Positions 3,698 to 53,415 of a DNA stretch of 64,000 nt are shown piece after piece. The notes under the pieces were generated by a model that had not been told where the DNA came from, did not search any database, and worked only from the letters and a program-made list of their open reading frames with translations. Both the position numbers and the translations under genes were made by a program. The stretch spans positions 372,001 through 436,000 of the forward strand of contig NZ_CADFDK010000002.1 of assembly GCF_902832885.1 (NCBI RefSeq), read 5' to 3'. How positions within the stretch are numbered: position 1 is the first letter of the stretch; each line of letters begins with the position of its first letter. Source of the DNA: Burkholderia seminalis DSM 23518 (GTDB taxonomy: Bacteria > Pseudomonadota > Gammaproteobacteria > Burkholderiales > Burkholderiaceae).

Positions 3698-3768
3698 GTC
3701 GGTGATCGGAGCCCGGCGGCCGTGCCCGTCGCGATGGCCGTCCGCGGCAGCCGGTGCGGTGGGCCGGT

Positions 3769-4092
3769 TCAAGCCGGATAGGAGTCGTTCACCTTCAGGT
3801 TCGCGAGCCGGAACAGCGTGCGCAGCGTCTGCGGATGAATGTCGCGGTGCGACGCAAGCGACGTCAGCATGAAGTCGAGCACTTTCGCGTAGCGCAGCAG
3901 CACGAGGCAGCGTGCGAGATCGGGCGTACGACCGCGCATGTCTTCGGCAAGGGTGACCATTTGCGTCGACAGCGTGCGCGCCATCTCGAGTTCCATCTGC
4001 TGTTTTTCGGTCCAGTCGGGCAGGGGCTGTTCGAGCACTTTCGCGAGAAAGAGCTGGAACGACGTATCGGACGAGTTGGGCAGCGCATCCAT
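3769..4092 (-). CDS. Hypothetical helical protein, 107 aa
   Basis: Small cytosolic protein with no recognised domain. Long amphipathic helices are predicted from its sequence (for example QLFLAKVLEQPLPDWTEKQQ and the segment with MVTLAEDMRG). Start ATG 4092 is preceded by GAGG at good spacing. It lies directly upstream of the 184-aa protein, with the possible alternative TTG start of that gene overlapping this stop codon, which suggests they function together. Codon use matches its neighbours, so the reading frame is credible even though the product is unknown. Confidence 0.65.
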   Translation of the reverse strand: MDALPNSSDTSFQLFLAKVLEQPLPDWTEKQQMELEMARTLSTQMVTLAEDMRGRTPDLARCLVLLRYAKVLDFMLTSLASHRDIHPQTLRTLFRLANLKVNDSYPA

Positions 4093-4682
4093 GAAGAGCC
4101 TCGTGCGTATGTGGATCGTTCGGGCGCATCCGTGGACGCGCCCGTGGGTGGAGGTGTGTCCGCGTCTTGATCGGCGCGGTGTTCACCCGAACGGAACGCA
4201 GGTTCCGTACCAGCGTCGCGAGACGAATGTTGAGTATTGTTGTGGCGTGTTAACGCGACGTCGGCGAGTCCCGCCGGTGCTGGGTCGCGGCGGCGGTCGA
4301 GGAAGGCATCCATACGCGCGGCGCGATGTATGCCGCGCATGCAAAACGGCTCGACACGTCGAAATGCTTCAGGGATGTAACGTAACGCCCGCATAAAACC
4401 CGTCGCGCGATTCCGTCGACGAACGGCCGGAACGAGGCGTTTCGCGCGTCCCGGCCACGTCCGACGTGCGTTCGCCGGTGCGGCATGCCGGAACGCGGCG
4501 CCCGGCGCCGAGCGGCGCAAGCGGGCCGCGCATGCGCCGGGTGTTTCAAAACCGAGACGCTTGCGCGAGCGGCGATCGCTTGCCCGGCCGCCGAACCGGC
4601 CCAGCGAAAGGGCGACCAATTGTCCATGGGCAGACGGCGCGCGTTTGCCAACAATCTCCAGATCATCCCTGCGAGGTTCGAC
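4093..4682. other. 590-bp divergent intergenic region
   Basis: Separates the minus-strand hypothetical pair from the plus-strand lysE-family gene and must hold both promoters. A lower-GC patch near 4205-4260 is the best promoter candidate. Frames here have poor codon bias and no recognisable product. No clear operator or repeat seen. Confidence 0.4.
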
Positions 4683-47413: not shown

Positions 47414-47649
47414 GGCGCCCCCCATGCCATTCTGGAATCCATGACAGCGCGCCGCATGCCGCGCTGATCGCCTCCCGCCTCCTTTCAATTTCCTTCGATG
47501 GCTGACATCGAACGGTCGTCGTCCTGCCTTTCCTGCCCGCCAGCGACCGCGCACGCATAGCGCGCGTCTGCTATTGCATTCCCCGCGGCGCTGATTAGGA
47601 AATGAATTTTTATTGGTTCTGCTTCCCCGGCGGCCCTCGCATAGTGGTG

Positions 47650-47662
47650 CTGACGGCTATAG
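47650..47662 (+). promoter_or_regulatory. Shared 13-bp promoter motif, copy 1
   Basis: CTGACGGCTATAG, containing TATAG as likely -10, 74 bp before the rhodanese start codon. The identical 13-mer precedes the encapsulin gene (49445). Its spacing to both starts is similar, so it probably marks co-regulated promoters. Confidence 0.55.
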
Positions 47663-47735
47663 ACAGCACGCAAGCTGCGACGGCCGAATTCCCGGTGTTT
47701 TTGTTCATACGAATCAGCGAAAACAAGGAAGTGTC

Positions 47736-48206
47736 ATGACGGTTGAACTGGAAGAACGAACCGCTGCGCAACAGGCGCTCGAAGACGCGCGCACGGCGGC
47801 CGCGGCGGCTGGCAAGTCCTATGCGGGCGGCGTGTCGCCGCAAACCGCGTGGGCGCTGTTCTCGGCAGGCGACGCATTGCTGGTGGACGTGCGCACGGCG
47901 GAAGAACGGAAATTCGTCGGTCACGTGCCGGAATCGCTGCACGTGCCGTGGGCGACCGGCACGAGCCTGACGCGCAACCCGCGCTTCGTGCGCGAACTGG
48001 AAGCGAAGACCGGCAAGGACGCCGTCGTGCTGTTGTTGTGCCGCAGCGGCAACCGCTCGGCCCAGGCGGCCGAGGCCGCGGCGAAGGGCGGTTTCACACA
48101 GGTGTTCAATGTGCTCGAAGGGTTCGAGGGCGACCTCGACGAGCGGCAGCAGCGCGGTAGCCAGAACGGTTGGCGCTTCCGCGGCCTGCCGTGGGCGCAG
48201 GACTGA
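47736..48206 (+). CDS. Rhodanese-like sulfurtransferase
   Basis: 156-aa single-domain rhodanese: persulfide loop LCRSGNRSAQAAEAAAKGGF with catalytic Cys in C-R-S-G-N-R, and the front part ALLVDVRTAEERKFVGHVPE. Such proteins move sulfane sulfur from thiosulfate or persulfide. AAGGAA precedes ATG 47736. First of a three-gene row (rhodanese, serine O-acetyltransferase 28 bp later, XRE regulator 8 bp later) placed just before the encapsulin and cysteine desulfurase genes. In family 2A encapsulin loci rhodanese genes are frequent partners. Confidence 0.92.
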   Translation: MTVELEERTAAQQALEDARTAAAAAGKSYAGGVSPQTAWALFSAGDALLVDVRTAEERKFVGHVPESLHVPWATGTSLTRNPRFVRELEAKTGKDAVVLLLCRSGNRSAQAAEAAAKGGFTQVFNVLEGFEGDLDERQQRGSQNGWRFRGLPWAQD

Positions 48207-48234
48207 TTCACGGCCGTTACGGGGAGAAGGCAGC

Positions 48235-49176
48235 ATGGCCGCATTCGACATCGACGACATCGTTCAATCGCTGCAGACGGTGCGCCGCGCATGGCGCGAG
48301 AAGCAGCGGCGCTCGCTCGAACCCGGCGGGCGCGACCTGCCGGCGCGCGAGGCGCTCGCGCAGATCATCGGCGCGCTGAAGGGCGTGCTGTTCCCGATGC
48401 GGCTCGGGCCGCCCGACCTGCGGCAGGAGAGCGAGAACTTCCACGTGGCCCATGCGCTCGACGCGGCGCTCAATGCGCTACTCGCGCAAGTGACGCTCGA
48501 ATTGCGCTACGCGGCGCGTCACCGTCATACCGACGGGGCGCCGCCCGACAACATCGACGCGGTCGCGTCCCAAGCCGTGCAGGCCTTTGCCGCGCGGTTG
48601 CCCGAGATCCGCCGGCTGCTCGACAGCGACGTGCTGGCGGCCTTTCACGGCGATCCGGCGGCCGGCAGCGTCGACGAGGTGCTGCTGTGCTATCCGGGCA
48701 TCCTCGCGATGATCCATCACCGGCTCGCGCACGAGCTGTACGGGCTCGGCCTGCCGCTGCTCGCGCGGATCATCGCCGAGCAGGCGCATGCGGAAACGGG
48801 CATCGACATTCATCCGGGCGCGCGCATCGGCGCGGGCTTCTTCATCGACCACGGCACGGGCGTCGTGATCGGCGAGACGGCGATCATCGGCGAGCGCGTG
48901 CGCGTGTACCAGGCCGTCACGCTCGGCGCGAAGCGCTTCCCGCGCGATGCGGACGGCCATCTGGAGAAAGGGCTCGCGCGCCATCCGATCGTCGAGGACG
49001 ACGTCGTGATCTATGCCGGTGCGACGATCCTCGGCCGCGTGACGATCGGACGCGGCGCGGTGATCGGCGGCAACGTGTGGCTCACGCAGGACGTGCCGCC
49101 CGGCGAAAACGTCACGCAGGCCGTGCTGCGCAGCGAAGCGAACGCCGCGCCGCGCGCGGCGGCGCGCGTCGCCTAG
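48235..49176 (+). CDS. Serine O-acetyltransferase (EpsC/SrpH-type)
   Basis: 313-aa serine acetyltransferase which makes O-acetylserine, the acceptor for sulfide in cysteine synthesis. The helical N-terminal domain ends near residue 175; the left-handed beta-helix starts with GIDIHPGARIGAGFFIDHGT, GVVIGETAIIGERVRVYQAV and TLGAKRFPRDADGHLEKG, and ends GGNVWLTQDVPPG. It is of the longer EpsC/SrpH kind and not the housekeeping CysE. Within the sulfur locus, it could draw on cysteine-derived sulfur or replace cysteine spent by the desulfurase. Start ATG 48235 with GGGGAGAAGG. Confidence 0.92.
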   Translation: MAAFDIDDIVQSLQTVRRAWREKQRRSLEPGGRDLPAREALAQIIGALKGVLFPMRLGPPDLRQESENFHVAHALDAALNALLAQVTLELRYAARHRHTDGAPPDNIDAVASQAVQAFAARLPEIRRLLDSDVLAAFHGDPAAGSVDEVLLCYPGILAMIHHRLAHELYGLGLPLLARIIAEQAHAETGIDIHPGARIGAGFFIDHGTGVVIGETAIIGERVRVYQAVTLGAKRFPRDADGHLEKGLARHPIVEDDVVIYAGATILGRVTIGRGAVIGGNVWLTQDVPPGENVTQAVLRSEANAAPRAAARVA

Positions 49177-49184
49177 GAGGCGCG

Positions 49185-49406
49185 ATGAGCGACCTCATCC
49201 ATCACTTCGGCGCCAACGTGCGCAAGCTGCGCGAGGCGCGCACGTGGTCGCAGGAGCAACTGGCCGAGCATGCGGGGCTGAACCGCTCGTACGTCGGCGA
49301 GATCGAGCGTGGCGAGGCGATCGCGTCGATCGTCACCGCCGACAAGATCGCGCGCGCATTCGACGTGTCGATCTCCGCGCTGCTGCCGGGCGCGTACGTC
49401 ACCTGA
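49185..49406 (+). CDS. XRE-family HTH regulator, 73 aa
   Basis: Minimal Cro/CI-type DNA-binding protein: VRKLREARTWSQEQLAEHAG, LNRSYVGEIERGEAIASIVT and IARAFDVSISALLPG form the five-helix domain with no effector part. TAGGAGG at ideal spacing, 8 bp after the serine acetyltransferase stop. Probably the local regulator of the encapsulin/desulfurase or the upstream operon. With only one domain, its activity must be controlled by a partner or by concentration. Confidence 0.9.
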   Translation: MSDLIHHFGANVRKLREARTWSQEQLAEHAGLNRSYVGEIERGEAIASIVTADKIARAFDVSISALLPGAYVT

Positions 49407-49444
49407 GGCTGCCTTATTTCGTTTCCCTTTCGGTTGTACGGGAC

Positions 49445-49457
49445 CTGACGGCTATAG
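49445..49457 (+). promoter_or_regulatory. Shared 13-bp promoter motif, copy 2
   Basis: Same CTGACGGCTATAG as at 47650, 88 bp before the encapsulin start. It indicates that shell and cargo genes have their own promoter, controlled together with the rhodanese operon. Confidence 0.55.
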
Positions 49458-49544
49458 CATGTTGAGCCGGCAGGGGCGTGCTTCCGATAATCACCCAGCG
49501 TCATAAGCAATCCCGTTTTTCATCTTAAGAACCCGGAGCCACAC

Positions 49545-50477
49545 ATGTCGACCGTTGCAAGCGGCGCGGCTGCGCTGAGCGATCACGCCGCCCGCCAACT
49601 AGCGAACGCTACCAAGACCGTCCCCCAGCTTTCCACGATCACGCCGCGCTGGCTGACCCATCTGCTGCAATGGGTGCCGGTCGAGGCCGGCATCTACCGG
49701 CTGAACCAGGTGAAGAACCCGGAAGCCGTGCGCGCCGCGTGCACGCAGCTCGAGGACGAAAGCGTGCTGCCGCAGACCTTCGTGCCGTACGAGGAACAGC
49801 CGCGCGAATACTTCCTGAACGCGGTCAGCACGGTGCTCGACGTGCATACGCGGATCTCCGATCTCTACAGCAGTCCTCACGATCAGATCAAGGAACAGCT
49901 GCGCCTGACGATCGAGACGATCAAGGAACTGCAGGAAAGCCAGCTGATCAACAACCCGGACTACGGGCTGCTCGCGAACGTGACCGACGAACAGCGGATT
50001 TTCCCGCTGACGGGCGCGCCGACGCCGGACGACCTCGACGAACTGCTGACGAAGGTGTGGAAGGAGCCGGCCTTCTTCCTCACGCACCCGCTCGCGATCG
50101 CCGCGTTCGGCCGCGAATGCACGCGGCGCGGCGTGCCGCCGCCGACGGTCAGCCTGTTCGGCTCGCAGTTCCTCACGTGGCGCGGCATTCCGCTGATTCC
50201 GTCGGACAAGGTGCCGGTCGCGGACGGCAAGACCAAGATCCTGCTGCTGCGCGTCGGCGACAAGCGCCAGGGCGTCGTCGGCCTGTATCAGCCGGGTGTC
50301 GCGGGCGAGCAGGGGCCGGGCCTGTCGGTGCGCTTCATGGGGATCAACAACCAGGCGATCGCGTCGTACCTGATCTCGCTGTATTGCTCGCTCGCGGTCC
50401 ATTCGCCGGATGCGCTGGCTGTCCTCGATGACGTCGAAATCGGCAAGTTCCATGACTATCCCGACACCTACCGTTAA
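49545..50477 (+). CDS. srpI: Family 2A encapsulin shell protein (SrpI-type)
   Basis: 310-aa SrpI/family 2A encapsulin, an HK97-fold protein that assembles into a hollow icosahedral shell in the cytosol. Typical features: the N-arm (residues 1-45), TPRWLTHLLQWVPVEAGIYR, the E-loop/P-domain part with NPDYGLLANVTDEQRIFPLT, and the A-domain with TVSLFGSQFLTWRGIPLIPS and a GVVGLYQPGVAGEQGPGLSV segment. Length matches the family (about 300-310 aa), with no cyclic-nucleotide domain, hence 2A and not 2B. Its stop codon lies within the cysteine desulfurase gene (26-bp overlap), the standard cargo neighbour. Confidence 0.93.
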   Translation: MSTVASGAAALSDHAARQLANATKTVPQLSTITPRWLTHLLQWVPVEAGIYRLNQVKNPEAVRAACTQLEDESVLPQTFVPYEEQPREYFLNAVSTVLDVHTRISDLYSSPHDQIKEQLRLTIETIKELQESQLINNPDYGLLANVTDEQRIFPLTGAPTPDDLDELLTKVWKEPAFFLTHPLAIAAFGRECTRRGVPPPTVSLFGSQFLTWRGIPLIPSDKVPVADGKTKILLLRVGDKRQGVVGLYQPGVAGEQGPGLSVRFMGINNQAIASYLISLYCSLAVHSPDALAVLDDVEIGKFHDYPDTYR

Positions 50478-52452
50478 TCCCGGCCTGGCCGGCGGCGACG
50501 CGCACGCGCTGCCGCACGCGCCGCTGCCGGCGGGGTTGCCCGACCCGGCGACGCTCGCGCGGCTCGCGTCCGAGTTCTTCGCGACGCCGCCCGGGCAGGC
50601 CACCGCGCCCGAGCTGTCGGCCGGCAGCGGCGCGGTCGGCGGCGTGCCGTCGGCGTTGCCGGCGGCCGCGCCGATCCTCGCGTCGGTCAGCAATCCGGTG
50701 CCCGGCGGCTCGCCGCTCGCGGGCCCGGGCGGGGCCGGCACCGGCGTGCCGGGGCTCGCGCTGCCGCAGGGCAAGGTGCCCGGCGCGAACCTCGCGCCGT
50801 CCGCGCCGACGCACGTGCTGTCGCTCGGCAACCGCGTGCCGGCGCTCGCGCCGCATGCGGCCGCGCAGAACGGGCTGCCCGACAACGCCGTGTCGATCGC
50901 GCCCGCGCTCGAACCGCGCGTCGGCGGCGCGGCGCTCGGCGTGCCGCAGGTGAATGCGCCGGCGCCGGAAGGCGCGGCGAAGGCGTCGCCGTACTACTTC
51001 ACCGACGGTTCGCTGCAGGGCTGGCAGCGGACGCCGCAGGACATCGTCGTGCCGTCGAACGGCCTCGCGTCGCCGGAAGCGTTCGGGCTGCCGGGCGACG
51101 ACGCTCTGCGCGAACTGCTCGCCGTGCATCGCGACGTGCCGGTGTCGCGTGCATCGGGCGCCGACGTGCCGCGCTACTTCGTCGACGATACGCATGCCGC
51201 CGAGCCGCAAGGTAAGTTGTATCGCGGCGCGCACCCGCCGTTCGACGTGAACGCGATCCGCCGCGATTTCCCGATCCTGCAGGAGCGCGTGAACGGCAAG
51301 CAGCTCGTCTGGTTCGACAACGCGGCGACGACGCACAAGCCGCAGGCCGTGATCGACCGGCTCGCGTATTTCTACGCACACGAGAACTCGAACATTCACC
51401 GCGCGGCGCATGCCCTGGCGGGCCGCGCGACGGATGCGTACGAGCATGCGCGGGAAACGGTGCGGCGCTTCATCGGCGCGTCGTCGTCGGACGAGATCGT
51501 GTTCGTGCGCGGCACGACCGAGGCGATCAACCTGATCGCGAAGTCGTGGGGCGTGCAGAACGTCGGCGAGGGCGACGAGATCATCGTGTCGAATCTCGAG
51601 CATCACGCGAACATCGTGCCGTGGCAGCAGCTTGCCGCGCTCAAGGGTGCGAAGCTGCGCGTGATTCCGGTCGACGATTCGGGGCAGGTGCTGCTCGACG
51701 AATACCGGAAGCTGCTCAACGACCGCACGAAGATCGTGTCGGTCACGCAGGTGTCGAATGCGCTCGGCACGGTCGTGCCGGTGAAGGAGATCGTCGAGCT
51801 TGCGCATCGCGCGGGTGCGAAGGCGCTCGTCGACGGCGCGCAGTCGATCTCGCACATGCGCGTCGACGTGCAGGCGCTCGATGCGGATTTCTTCGTGTTC
51901 TCCGGGCACAAGATCTACGGGCCGACCGGGATCGGCGTCGTGTACGGCAAGCGCGCGATCCTCGACGACATGCCGCCCTGGCAGGGCGGCGGCAACATGA
52001 TCGCGGACGTGACGTTCGAGCGCACGGTGTTCCAGCCGCCGCCGAACCGGTTCGAAGCCGGCACCGGCAACATCGCGGATGCGGTGGGGCTCGGCGCCGC
52101 GCTCGATTACGTGAACCGCATCGGTATCGAGAACATCGCTCGCTACGAGCACGACCTGCTGGCGTATGCGACGAGCGTGCTCGCGCCGGTACCGGGCGTG
52201 CGGCTCGTCGGCACCGCGCGCGACAAGGCGAGCGTGCTGTCGTTCGTGCTGAAGGGCTATGAAACCGAGGAAGTCGGGCAGGCGCTGAACGAAGAGGGCA
52301 TCGCGGTGCGCTCCGGGCATCACTGCGCGCAGCCGATCCTGCGGCGCTTCGGGCTCGAGGCCACGGTGCGGCCGTCGCTCGCGTTCTACAACACGTGCGA
52401 CGAGGTCGATGCGCTGGTGCGTGTCGTGAAGCGGCTGGCGACGCGCCGTTGA
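50452..52452 (+). CDS. Encapsulated cysteine desulfurase with long disordered N terminus
   Basis: 666-aa cargo enzyme. Residues 1-263 are an Ala/Pro/Gly-rich, mostly disordered extension, as found in family 2A cargo desulfurases for shell targeting; two short aromatic motifs in it (PYYFTDG at 180-186 and PRYFVDD at 240-246) may be contact points. Residues 264-666 form a SufS-type desulfurase: WFDNAATTHKP, PLP-Lys487 (SGHKIYGPTGIG) and catalytic Cys625 (RSGHHCAQPI). It removes sulfur from cysteine as persulfide/sulfur inside the shell. ATG 50452 overlaps the encapsulin stop; a longer in-frame start has no support. Confidence 0.93.
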   Translation: MTIPTPTVNPGLAGGDAHALPHAPLPAGLPDPATLARLASEFFATPPGQATAPELSAGSGAVGGVPSALPAAAPILASVSNPVPGGSPLAGPGGAGTGVPGLALPQGKVPGANLAPSAPTHVLSLGNRVPALAPHAAAQNGLPDNAVSIAPALEPRVGGAALGVPQVNAPAPEGAAKASPYYFTDGSLQGWQRTPQDIVVPSNGLASPEAFGLPGDDALRELLAVHRDVPVSRASGADVPRYFVDDTHAAEPQGKLYRGAHPPFDVNAIRRDFPILQERVNGKQLVWFDNAATTHKPQAVIDRLAYFYAHENSNIHRAAHALAGRATDAYEHARETVRRFIGASSSDEIVFVRGTTEAINLIAKSWGVQNVGEGDEIIVSNLEHHANIVPWQQLAALKGAKLRVIPVDDSGQVLLDEYRKLLNDRTKIVSVTQVSNALGTVVPVKEIVELAHRAGAKALVDGAQSISHMRVDVQALDADFFVFSGHKIYGPTGIGVVYGKRAILDDMPPWQGGGNMIADVTFERTVFQPPPNRFEAGTGNIADAVGLGAALDYVNRIGIENIARYEHDLLAYATSVLAPVPGVRLVGTARDKASVLSFVLKGYETEEVGQALNEEGIAVRSGHHCAQPILRRFGLEATVRPSLAFYNTCDEVDALVRVVKRLATRR

Positions 52453-52471
52453 CGGTGATGTCGTTGTTGCC

Positions 52472-52510
52472 CGCCTGCGGCGGCCCTTGCGGGTCGCCGC
52501 AGGCGTTTTC
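52472..52510 (+). terminator. Rho-independent terminator
   Basis: CGCCTGCGGCG, 12-base loop, CGCCGCAGGCG, TTTTC: it ends the encapsulin-desulfurase transcript just before the convergent gene. Confidence 0.85.
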
Positions 52511-52521
52511 CCGTTGCGCGG

Positions 52522-53415
52522 TCAGAATCGTACGACCGGCTTCTTCTCCACGCTGAACCCGTCACGCAGCACGCACGCCGAATCGGCGAAGTATCGGCGG
52601 GTTTCCGACAGCAGGTCGGTGTTGCCGCGCCGGCAGAACACCACACCCGATCCTTCCTCCGTCAGCAGTTCGTCGATCAGCGATTCGGGTTGCCCGATAT
52701 CGGCGAGGTGGACGTTCTGCACGCCGTGCGCGAGCGCATCGAGCGCGTCCCGCACGCAGGGCGCCGCATCGGCGGCCGGATGCTCGGCGAGCCATTGTTC
52801 GAGTTCCGTGATGCCGTACAGCCCGGCGAGCTCGCCGAGTTCGCGCAGCCATGCCCCGTCGACCATCATCACCAGCGTGACGGCACCGGTGCATTGCGCG
52901 AACAGGCTGCCGAGCCGTTCCGGGCGCAGCACGTGCGCGTGGCCCGCGTCGTCCGGTGCGACCGGCATCACGACGGGCACGAGTCCGTTTTCCAGGAAGG
53001 CGTTCAACGCGGCGACGTCGAACCGTGCGACCGCGCTTGCCTGCGTGCGGTCGGGTGCCGCGCGGGCGACCAGCAGGCCGCCGTCGTGACCGTCGATGCC
53101 GATCGCCCTAGCACCGTGACCGCCGATCAGGCGCACCAGTTCGTGATTGACGCCGGTCATCGCGGCATGCGCGGCCTCGACCGATTGCGTATCGGCCGCG
53201 GCCGGCCCGCCCTGGACGACGACCGGACGAACGCCGGTGAGCGCAAGCAGCGCGACATCCTGTGCGAAGGCCGCACGGGTGCGTGCATCGCTCGCGGCGC
53301 CGCCATCGACGATGACGACGGTCTGCCCGTGCAGCGCCTGCATGAACGGCAGCGAGTGAGCCAGGCCGGCTGCGCGTCGCGACATGAGCGTGGGACTTTC
53401 AGGGTCTGGGAACAT
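52522..53415 (-). CDS. Acetylglutamate-kinase-like protein (degenerate ArgB paralogue)
   Basis: 297-aa protein of the amino-acid kinase fold, closest to N-acetylglutamate kinase: VALLALTGVRPVVVQGGPAA and AMTGVNHELVRLIGGHGARA match ArgB clearly. But the N-terminal catalytic Lys (VVKYGG in ArgB) is missing (VVIVDGG), the GKDG lysine is replaced (GIDGHDGG), and the NxNAD loop is absent. It is therefore probably not a normal kinase. Two in-frame ATGs (53415, 53385), neither with a good ribosome site. Last gene of a minus-strand row converging on the encapsulin locus. It may have a regulatory or binding role. Confidence 0.75.
   Translation of the reverse strand: MFPDPESPTLMSRRAAGLAHSLPFMQALHGQTVVIVDGGAASDARTRAAFAQDVALLALTGVRPVVVQGGPAAADTQSVEAAHAAMTGVNHELVRLIGGHGARAIGIDGHDGGLLVARAAPDRTQASAVARFDVAALNAFLENGLVPVVMPVAPDDAGHAHVLRPERLGSLFAQCTGAVTLVMMVDGAWLRELGELAGLYGITELEQWLAEHPAADAAPCVRDALDALAHGVQNVHLADIGQPESLIDELLTEEGSGVVFCRRGNTDLLSETRRYFADSACVLRDGFSVEKKPVVRF

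Follow-up and report, generated by a model that had tools for sequence, protein, structure and literature searches.

The window analysed here is a 64,000-nucleotide stretch of the Burkholderia seminalis DSM 23518 genome (positions 372001-436000 of contig 2 of the 8-Mb genome). It holds a family 2A encapsulin system, a catalogued kind already reported from Burkholderia, in which a small XRE regulator and two operator-like sites accompany the genes for a shell and a cysteine desulfurase cargo. Because the kind is already catalogued, the compartment as such is ordinary here and the regulatory part counts for more. Five genes lie in the order rhodanese, serine O-acetyltransferase (SAT), XRE, shell and cargo. 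A sequence-only reading of this DNA had named the same five, and all were verified as real with Pfam and NCBIfam models.

47736 to 48206, + strand: rhodanese-like sulfurtransferase, 156 residues (PF00581)
48235 to 49176, + strand: serine O-acetyltransferase of the EpsC/CysE type, 313 residues (NF041874, TIGR01172)
49185 to 49406, + strand: small XRE regulator, 73 residues, controller-protein-like (HTH_3)
49545 to 50477, + strand: family 2A encapsulin shell protein, SrpI-like, 310 residues (PF19307, NF041162)
50452 to 52452, + strand: cargo cysteine desulfurase, 666 residues, of which 1-263 form a putative loading extension (NF041166)

The shell protein, the only one encoded in this genome, scores 525.9 bits against the family 2A model NF041162 encap_f2a (cut-off 380) and 335.5 bits against PF19307 (cut-off 22.8). 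Its matches among solved structures are PDB 8t6r (562 bits) and SrpI, 6x8m (486 bits), and the Gly194 and Pro196 pore residues of SrpI align to Gly196 and Pro198 here. It is 80% identical to the Acinetobacter baumannii shell and 72% identical to SrpI, in agreement with its first assignment as an SrpI-type family 2A shell. Because the A. baumannii shell is of a solved kind, 80% identity makes the predicted HK97 fold near certain. The SAT protein scores 160.4 bits against NF041874 (cut-off 150) and 169.5 bits against TIGR01172 cysE, below that model's cut-off of 210.65.

The cargo scores 958.8 bits against NF041166 (cut-off 800). Its mechanically called open reading frame begins at 50410. To place the start, 80 related loci were compared, the best 80 of at least 566 related shell loci. 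Their first group (L033-L085) comes from Burkholderia, Paraburkholderia, Caballeronia, Trinickia and Cupriavidus, and their second (L086-L112) from Delftia, Acidovorax, Duganella, Variovorax, Comamonas and others. The codon equivalent to 50410 is ACG in 20 of the 53 first-group loci, whereas ATG stands at the 50452 position in 53/53, so 50452 is better supported. It is not ATG in the other 27 loci, where the predicted start is elsewhere. Starting from 50452, the protein has 666 residues and its gene overlaps the shell gene by 26 bases, and the earlier description of a 263-residue N-terminal extension, Cys625 and an overlapping gene is reproduced in full. The extension is 46% Ala, Pro and Gly, and no Pfam match falls within it.

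50554 to 50580, + strand: putative loading motif 1, LARLASEFF (published consensus LARLANEFFS, in the accessible text of PMC8049743)
50983 to 51009, + strand: putative loading motif 2, ASPYYFTDG (published consensus AASPYYFLDG, same text)
52324 to 52326, + strand: Cys625 codon, within HHCAQP; putative persulfide-carrying cysteine, by homology to SufS

Each tail stretch, LARLASEFFA and KASPYYFTDG, differs from its consensus by two substitutions. The SGHK at residues 484-487 corresponds to the pyridoxal phosphate lysine motif of SufS-type desulfurases and would, by homology, have the same role, and Cys625 presumably carries the persulfide, as its counterpart in SufS does. The catalytic domain is 73% identical to the A. 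baumannii counterpart and 73% identical to that of Synechococcus elongatus. When the SufS model was run on the whole genome, only the cargo passed the cut-off; three other proteins scored 157-164 bits and six more at most 38 bits. The pairing of a family 2A shell with a desulfurase cargo is thus strongly supported by protein sequence. The complete rhodanese-SAT-XRE-shell-cargo order was found in 71/80 related loci, so the arrangement is not due to chance. A rhodanese match accompanies the shell gene in 78/80.

Both predicted transcription units of the locus, rhodanese-SAT-XRE and shell-cargo, are preceded by a promoter-like sequence and an operator-like site.

47640 to 47645, + strand: putative -10 (CATAGT) of the rhodanese-SAT-XRE operon
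47650 to 47669, + strand: operator-like site O1 (CTGACGGCTATAGACAGCAC), just downstream of the putative -10, conserved in relatives
49445 to 49466, + strand: operator-like site O2 (CTGACGGCTATAGCATGTTGAG), overlapping the shell -35, conserved in loci with the XRE gene
49462 to 49467, + strand: putative -35 (TTGAGC) of the shell-cargo promoter, from its sequence and the -10 spacing across 75 loci
49486 to 49491, + strand: putative -10 (GATAAT) of the shell-cargo promoter, with an 18-bp spacer in the window

The exact 13-mer CTGACGGCTATAG begins both sites, at 47650 and 49445. Within one mismatch it occurs twice in the 8-Mb genome, both times at this locus, while the backwards control gave nine matches. 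Loci were scored XRE+ when tblastn found a match at E up to 1e-4. By this measure 75 of the 80 are XRE+ (51 in the first group, 24 in the second) and five are XRE- (L083, L085, L098, L103, L109). The shell-side element TTGRYGGCTATAGCMKGTTGAR, located by a 13-bp core pattern, is present in 75/75 XRE+ loci, at most 300 bp upstream of the shell gene, and lies 98-102 bp away in 51 of them. Positions of the site carry 1.61 bits on average, compared with 0.19 in the 40 bp before it and 0.40 in the 45 bp after it. The element ends inside the -35 (TTGA), and strong conservation reaches 17 bp beyond that hexamer. When the best of four spacings was chosen, the -10 followed after 17 bp in 53/75 loci and 18 bp in 21/75. 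GATAAT (37 loci), GACACT (14) and CATAAT (12) are its commonest forms, and 54/75 match TATAAT at four or more positions. Since the element ends in the -35 and the -10 follows 17-18 bp on, its centre would lie near -43.

The rhodanese-side site is placed differently. In 47/51 first-group XRE+ loci a CATAGT-like hexamer precedes it by 10-12 bp, which puts the site over the expected start of transcription. Rows with a rhodanese match below 100 bits or with less than 120 bp of upstream DNA were excluded from the count. A site within one mismatch of TGRYGKCTATMG, no more than 220 bp upstream of the rhodanese gene, was present in 66/77 XRE+ loci, in 1/5 XRE- loci and in 5/77 random stretches of the same loci, some of which may include true sites. 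Several second-group loci have a nearly palindromic form, such as TTGACGTCTATCGCCATCAA in L106.

Presence of the shell-side site was then compared with presence of the XRE gene, using matrices built from one group to score the other. The matrix from the 24 second-group XRE+ loci ranked the shell-side site first in 50/51 first-group XRE+ loci; in the remaining one, L070, it came second after the rhodanese-side site. The first-group matrix ranked the shell-side site first in 23/24 second-group XRE+ loci. In L093 its top match was a shell-side element farther upstream, and the L093 row among the 24 used for training is a wrong stretch, as the site lies outside the 160 bp used. With these hold-out matrices the element scores at least 14.4 bits in XRE+ loci, versus at most 8.6 bits in the five XRE- loci. 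A further set of 28 other loci, 21 of them stretches of only 3.6-3.9 kb, gave at least 23.2 bits in 8/8 XRE+ loci and at most 6.9 bits anywhere in 20/20 XRE- loci. Of the XRE+ loci in this set, L177 and L178 coincide with the training rows L056 and L070; of the XRE- loci, L003 and L171 coincide with each other. Without duplicates, 6/6 XRE+ loci score at least 29 bits and 19/19 XRE- places at most 6.9 bits. With identities of only 50% and 58%, L119 and L181, both counted as XRE-, may encode 2B shells or shells of another type. XRE- loci of this set include those of A. baumannii, S. elongatus, Azospirillum, Methylosinus and Aliarcobacter. In all, 24 distinct XRE- loci give no score above 8.6 bits.

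The nearest solved relatives of the XRE protein are the controller (C) proteins C.BclI (E 1.3e-10) and C.AhdI (E 2.1e-10), with SinR and further HTH_3 regulators behind them at weaker E. Across 27 aligned proteins, the window's own and 26 chosen from the 75 loci, the stretch LNRSYVGEIERG hardly varies, as would be expected if the site is invariant. Like C proteins, the XRE regulator appears to be a local regulator with a site at the promoter of its own operon. In contrast to them, one site was seen per promoter rather than a pair, and a Pfam scan of eight proteins of the locus found no restriction or methylase gene. It may work like a C protein, but is not classed as one.

Comparison with described systems shows which parts of the locus are shared. 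The structure in PDB 8t6r is that of the family 2A shell of A. baumannii (accessible text of PMC11946847). The A. baumannii locus compared here (L196, not the strain of 8t6r) has the order rhodanese-SAT-shell-cargo and versions of both cargo-tail motifs, as the window does; in contrast to the window, it has no XRE match and no operator-like site within 10.9 kb. By the title of the 2024 paper of Benisch et al., the one cited for 8t6r, this A. baumannii encapsulin reportedly stores elemental sulfur. The S. elongatus SrpI/CyD cluster (pANL, 6x8m) is alike in its shell, in a cargo with a loading extension and in having SAT and rhodanese genes nearby. It differs in containing cysK, in gene order, in lacking an XRE match and in having shell and cargo genes that do not overlap, and its cargo gave no match to the exact motif strings that were tried. 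According to the accessible text of PMC8049743, SrpI forms a 24.5-nm T=1 particle, loads its desulfurase via the disordered N-terminus and rises in sulfate starvation. For Burkholderia, the accessible text of Andreas and Giessen 2021 (PMC8346489) states desulfurase encapsulins for Burkholderia cepacia and B. pseudomallei and names rhodanese and SAT as the most enriched accessory genes of such operons. Those operons share genus, system and accessory genes with the window, and the same text contains no mention of an XRE gene or operator-like sites for them. No regulator or operator of a family 2A encapsulin was found among the literature matches listed, with subscription papers mostly beyond reach. 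The compartment is thus of a known kind, and the regulatory module of site and XRE is newly noticed.

We consider a family 2A encapsulin with two XRE-governed transcription units the best explanation of the locus as a whole, with a probability of about 0.8. The analysis shows what each gene is, which loading motifs and catalytic residues the cargo carries, where the conserved sites lie and how they go together with the XRE gene. From this we infer that particles assemble, that sulfur is stored, and that the XRE protein binds and in which direction it controls, as follows. Most likely the shell protein assembles into a 60-subunit HK97-fold particle of about 24 nm, and the SufS-like desulfurase would be taken up through the pair of short motifs that its flexible N-terminal extension carries. 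The five-fold pore would admit cysteine, Cys625 would take its sulfur, and sulfur would build up within the particle, as reported for the A. baumannii system. Collecting or delivering sulfur is probably the task of the rhodanese, and SAT would supply O-acetylserine for remaking cysteine; a return of sulfur through rhodanese and the O-acetylserine route, part of the sequence-only reading, is a plausible extension. The local 73-residue XRE protein would govern both transcription units, most likely by binding the TTGRYGGC-TATA-centred operator. At the rhodanese promoter it would sit over the start-site region, a repressor position, and limit its own operon. At the shell promoter it would sit against the -35, centred near -43, an activator position. 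If true, shell making would be coupled to the sulfur-handling genes, and an encapsulin would have a transcription factor and an operator of its own. With a site of 22 bp and a protein of 73 residues there would then be a direct handle on what switches the shells on and when cells make them.

Several observations weigh against this reading. The shell also passes the cut-off of the 2B model (412 bits, cut-off 400). The best 2B stretch covers only model positions 217-449 of 450, the shared capsid part, and the 310-residue shell has no cyclic nucleotide-binding domain, the mark of 2B, PF19307 being its sole Pfam match. That the shells are filled with sulfur is carried over by homology from the A. 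baumannii system. The 13-mer pair is not significant on its own, as 8/100 shuffles of the window gave two or more matches at up to two mismatches. A symmetric form of the operator was not found at the window locus within three mismatches, so the window's own sites are asymmetric. In 11/77 XRE+ loci there is no rhodanese-side site within one mismatch. Conversely, a near-perfect rhodanese-side site, TTGATGTCCATCGCCATCAA, persists in the XRE- Duganella locus L109, whose genome encodes no close homologue of the XRE protein. This weakens strict pairing of gene and site; the L109 site is either a relic or the site of another binder. Finally, the XRE gene and the shell-side site are neighbours and the loci are related rather than independent. 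Because the two adjoin, their joint loss by one deletion is expected, and this physical linkage is the main caveat on the pairing. Two things lessen it without removing it: in the window 1.5 kb separate the rhodanese-side site from the XRE gene, and in L018 the shell-side site stays with the shell although the XRE gene is about 0.7 kb away.

As to the direction of control, we wondered whether the XRE protein might instead repress both promoters as a plain autorepressor, without activating the shell promoter. Repression is common among small XRE proteins, and the shell-side site overlaps the -35. Lambda cI, on the other hand, activates from about -42, and the shell-side site, centred near -43 and some 7.5 bp ahead of the -35 hexamer, occupies a lambda cI-like activating position; the two sites also differ in placement relative to their promoters. 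C proteins are activator-repressors: in the accessible text of PMC3695507, the upstream PvuII site activates and the one overlapping the -35 represses, a precedent that favours the autorepressor for O2. Site positions at the two promoters thus lead us to read the XRE protein as a repressor of the operon that encodes it and, with only modest confidence, as an activator at the shell promoter; plain repression is about equally likely. The full circuit, in which a locus-devoted XRE protein of Burkholderiales represses the rhodanese-SAT-XRE operon and activates the shell-cargo promoter, much as in phages or restriction systems, is accordingly offered only tentatively.

A second alternative concerns the purpose of the compartment. 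The shell could house the desulfurase in order to spare cytosolic cysteine, as proposed for SrpI (accessible text of PMC8049743), or to channel persulfide only to the co-encoded rhodanese, as proposed for these operons (accessible text of PMC8346489), and not to store sulfur. Channelling would fit the 78/80 loci with a rhodanese match beside the shell. Storage is what the title of the A. baumannii paper reports for that relative. Moreover L083 and L085 have shell and cargo with no rhodanese match within 12.9 kb, so these two loci can do without channelling to a neighbour. We regard a shell without sulfur storage as rather unlikely.

Less probable still is that the site is bound by another regulator, or is simply a strong core promoter element, with the XRE gene a linked bystander. 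The adjacency of site and gene, the -35 within the right arm of the site and the site kept in L109 would all suit such a bystander. Yet a related site stands upstream of the XRE gene's own operon in 66/77 XRE+ loci, and the L018 site remains with the shell across the gap. Strong conservation 17 bp beyond the -35, and XRE- loci that have shell genes without the site, also speak against it. A prophage remnant, suggested by the HK97-fold similarity and by capsid proteins on E. coli plasmid records that match the shell query at about 25% identity, is rejected as next to impossible, given an adjoining cargo with both loading motifs, the family 2A model match, no phage gene among the eight scanned proteins and the operon conserved in 71/80 loci.

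The shell family, counting the window's genome, occurs in 32/61 relatives searched and in 30/37 of the genus. The NCBIfam shell model matched 7/369 genomes of the class, six above cut-off, and 17/398 of the phylum, all above cut-off, with the window's genome included each time. Among the named loci of the compared set, all of the top shell matches (97-99%) come from Burkholderia, mostly from species that we take to belong to the B. cepacia complex. The sequence-only reading had expected shell and cargo to be annotated elsewhere only as unknown or SufS-like genes. This does not hold, as plasmid records call them 'family 2A encapsulin nanocompartment shell/cargo protein'; PDB titles still read 'Major membrane protein I'.

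The locus varies in copy number and setting. L083 (Paraburkholderia polaris) and L085 (Burkholderia sp. 4M9327F10) have no SAT or XRE match within 12.9 kb either. Because the P. polaris strain of L083 also has a full copy (L067), minimal second copies exist. XRE homologues 72-74% identical are encoded elsewhere in the L083 and L085 genomes; in the two Undibacterium and one Duganella XRE- genomes the best homologue is only 42% identical. Paraburkholderia xenovorans LB400 has two complete systems, L066 on chromosome 3 and L073 on chromosome 2. Plasmid 3 of Variovorax sp. PBL-E5 (L195), in a record typed non-mobilizable, carries the full rhodanese-SAT-XRE-shell-cargo set with a shell-side site. 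On plasmid p3 of Azospirillum brasilense (L198), a larger, divergent XRE-family regulator (locus positions 3725-4324) lies close to the shell gene; regulators of the XRE type may therefore have joined such loci on several occasions.

No wider regulon of the XRE protein is claimed beyond the locus, as CTGACGGCTATAG occurs nowhere else in its genome within one mismatch. The symmetric pattern gave six weak matches in this genome, none at the locus, versus ten for the backwards control. In relatives, among the matches listed, it exceeded the backwards control in 11/12 genomes, including the four covered by this comparison (G434, G435, G436, G437) of the five behind XRE- loci; of these four, G434 and G435 lack a close XRE homologue. 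Four matches outside the operon were inspected (L128, L131, L135, L139) and all lie inside long open frames. A regulon may extend beyond the locus in relatives.

One more conserved element was noted upstream.

47600 to 47619, + strand: AT-rich element AAATGAATTTTTATTGGTTC upstream of the rhodanese promoter, with similar stretches in the examined relatives of L033-L085

It looked like a sulfur-regulator site and CysB was considered, but the idea was set aside: without mismatch the genome holds the full form at a single place, and the core at one further place, between genes that read as Ohr-like and TetR-like. In their accessible text, the Burkholderia cysteine desulfurase papers found concern IscS or Fe-S assembly and contain nothing on this locus, and a Burkholderia quorum-sensing paper contains no terms for this operon. 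Downstream, an acetylglutamate kinase-like gene (52522-53415, minus strand), which scores under the ArgB cut-off, is convergent with the cargo gene.

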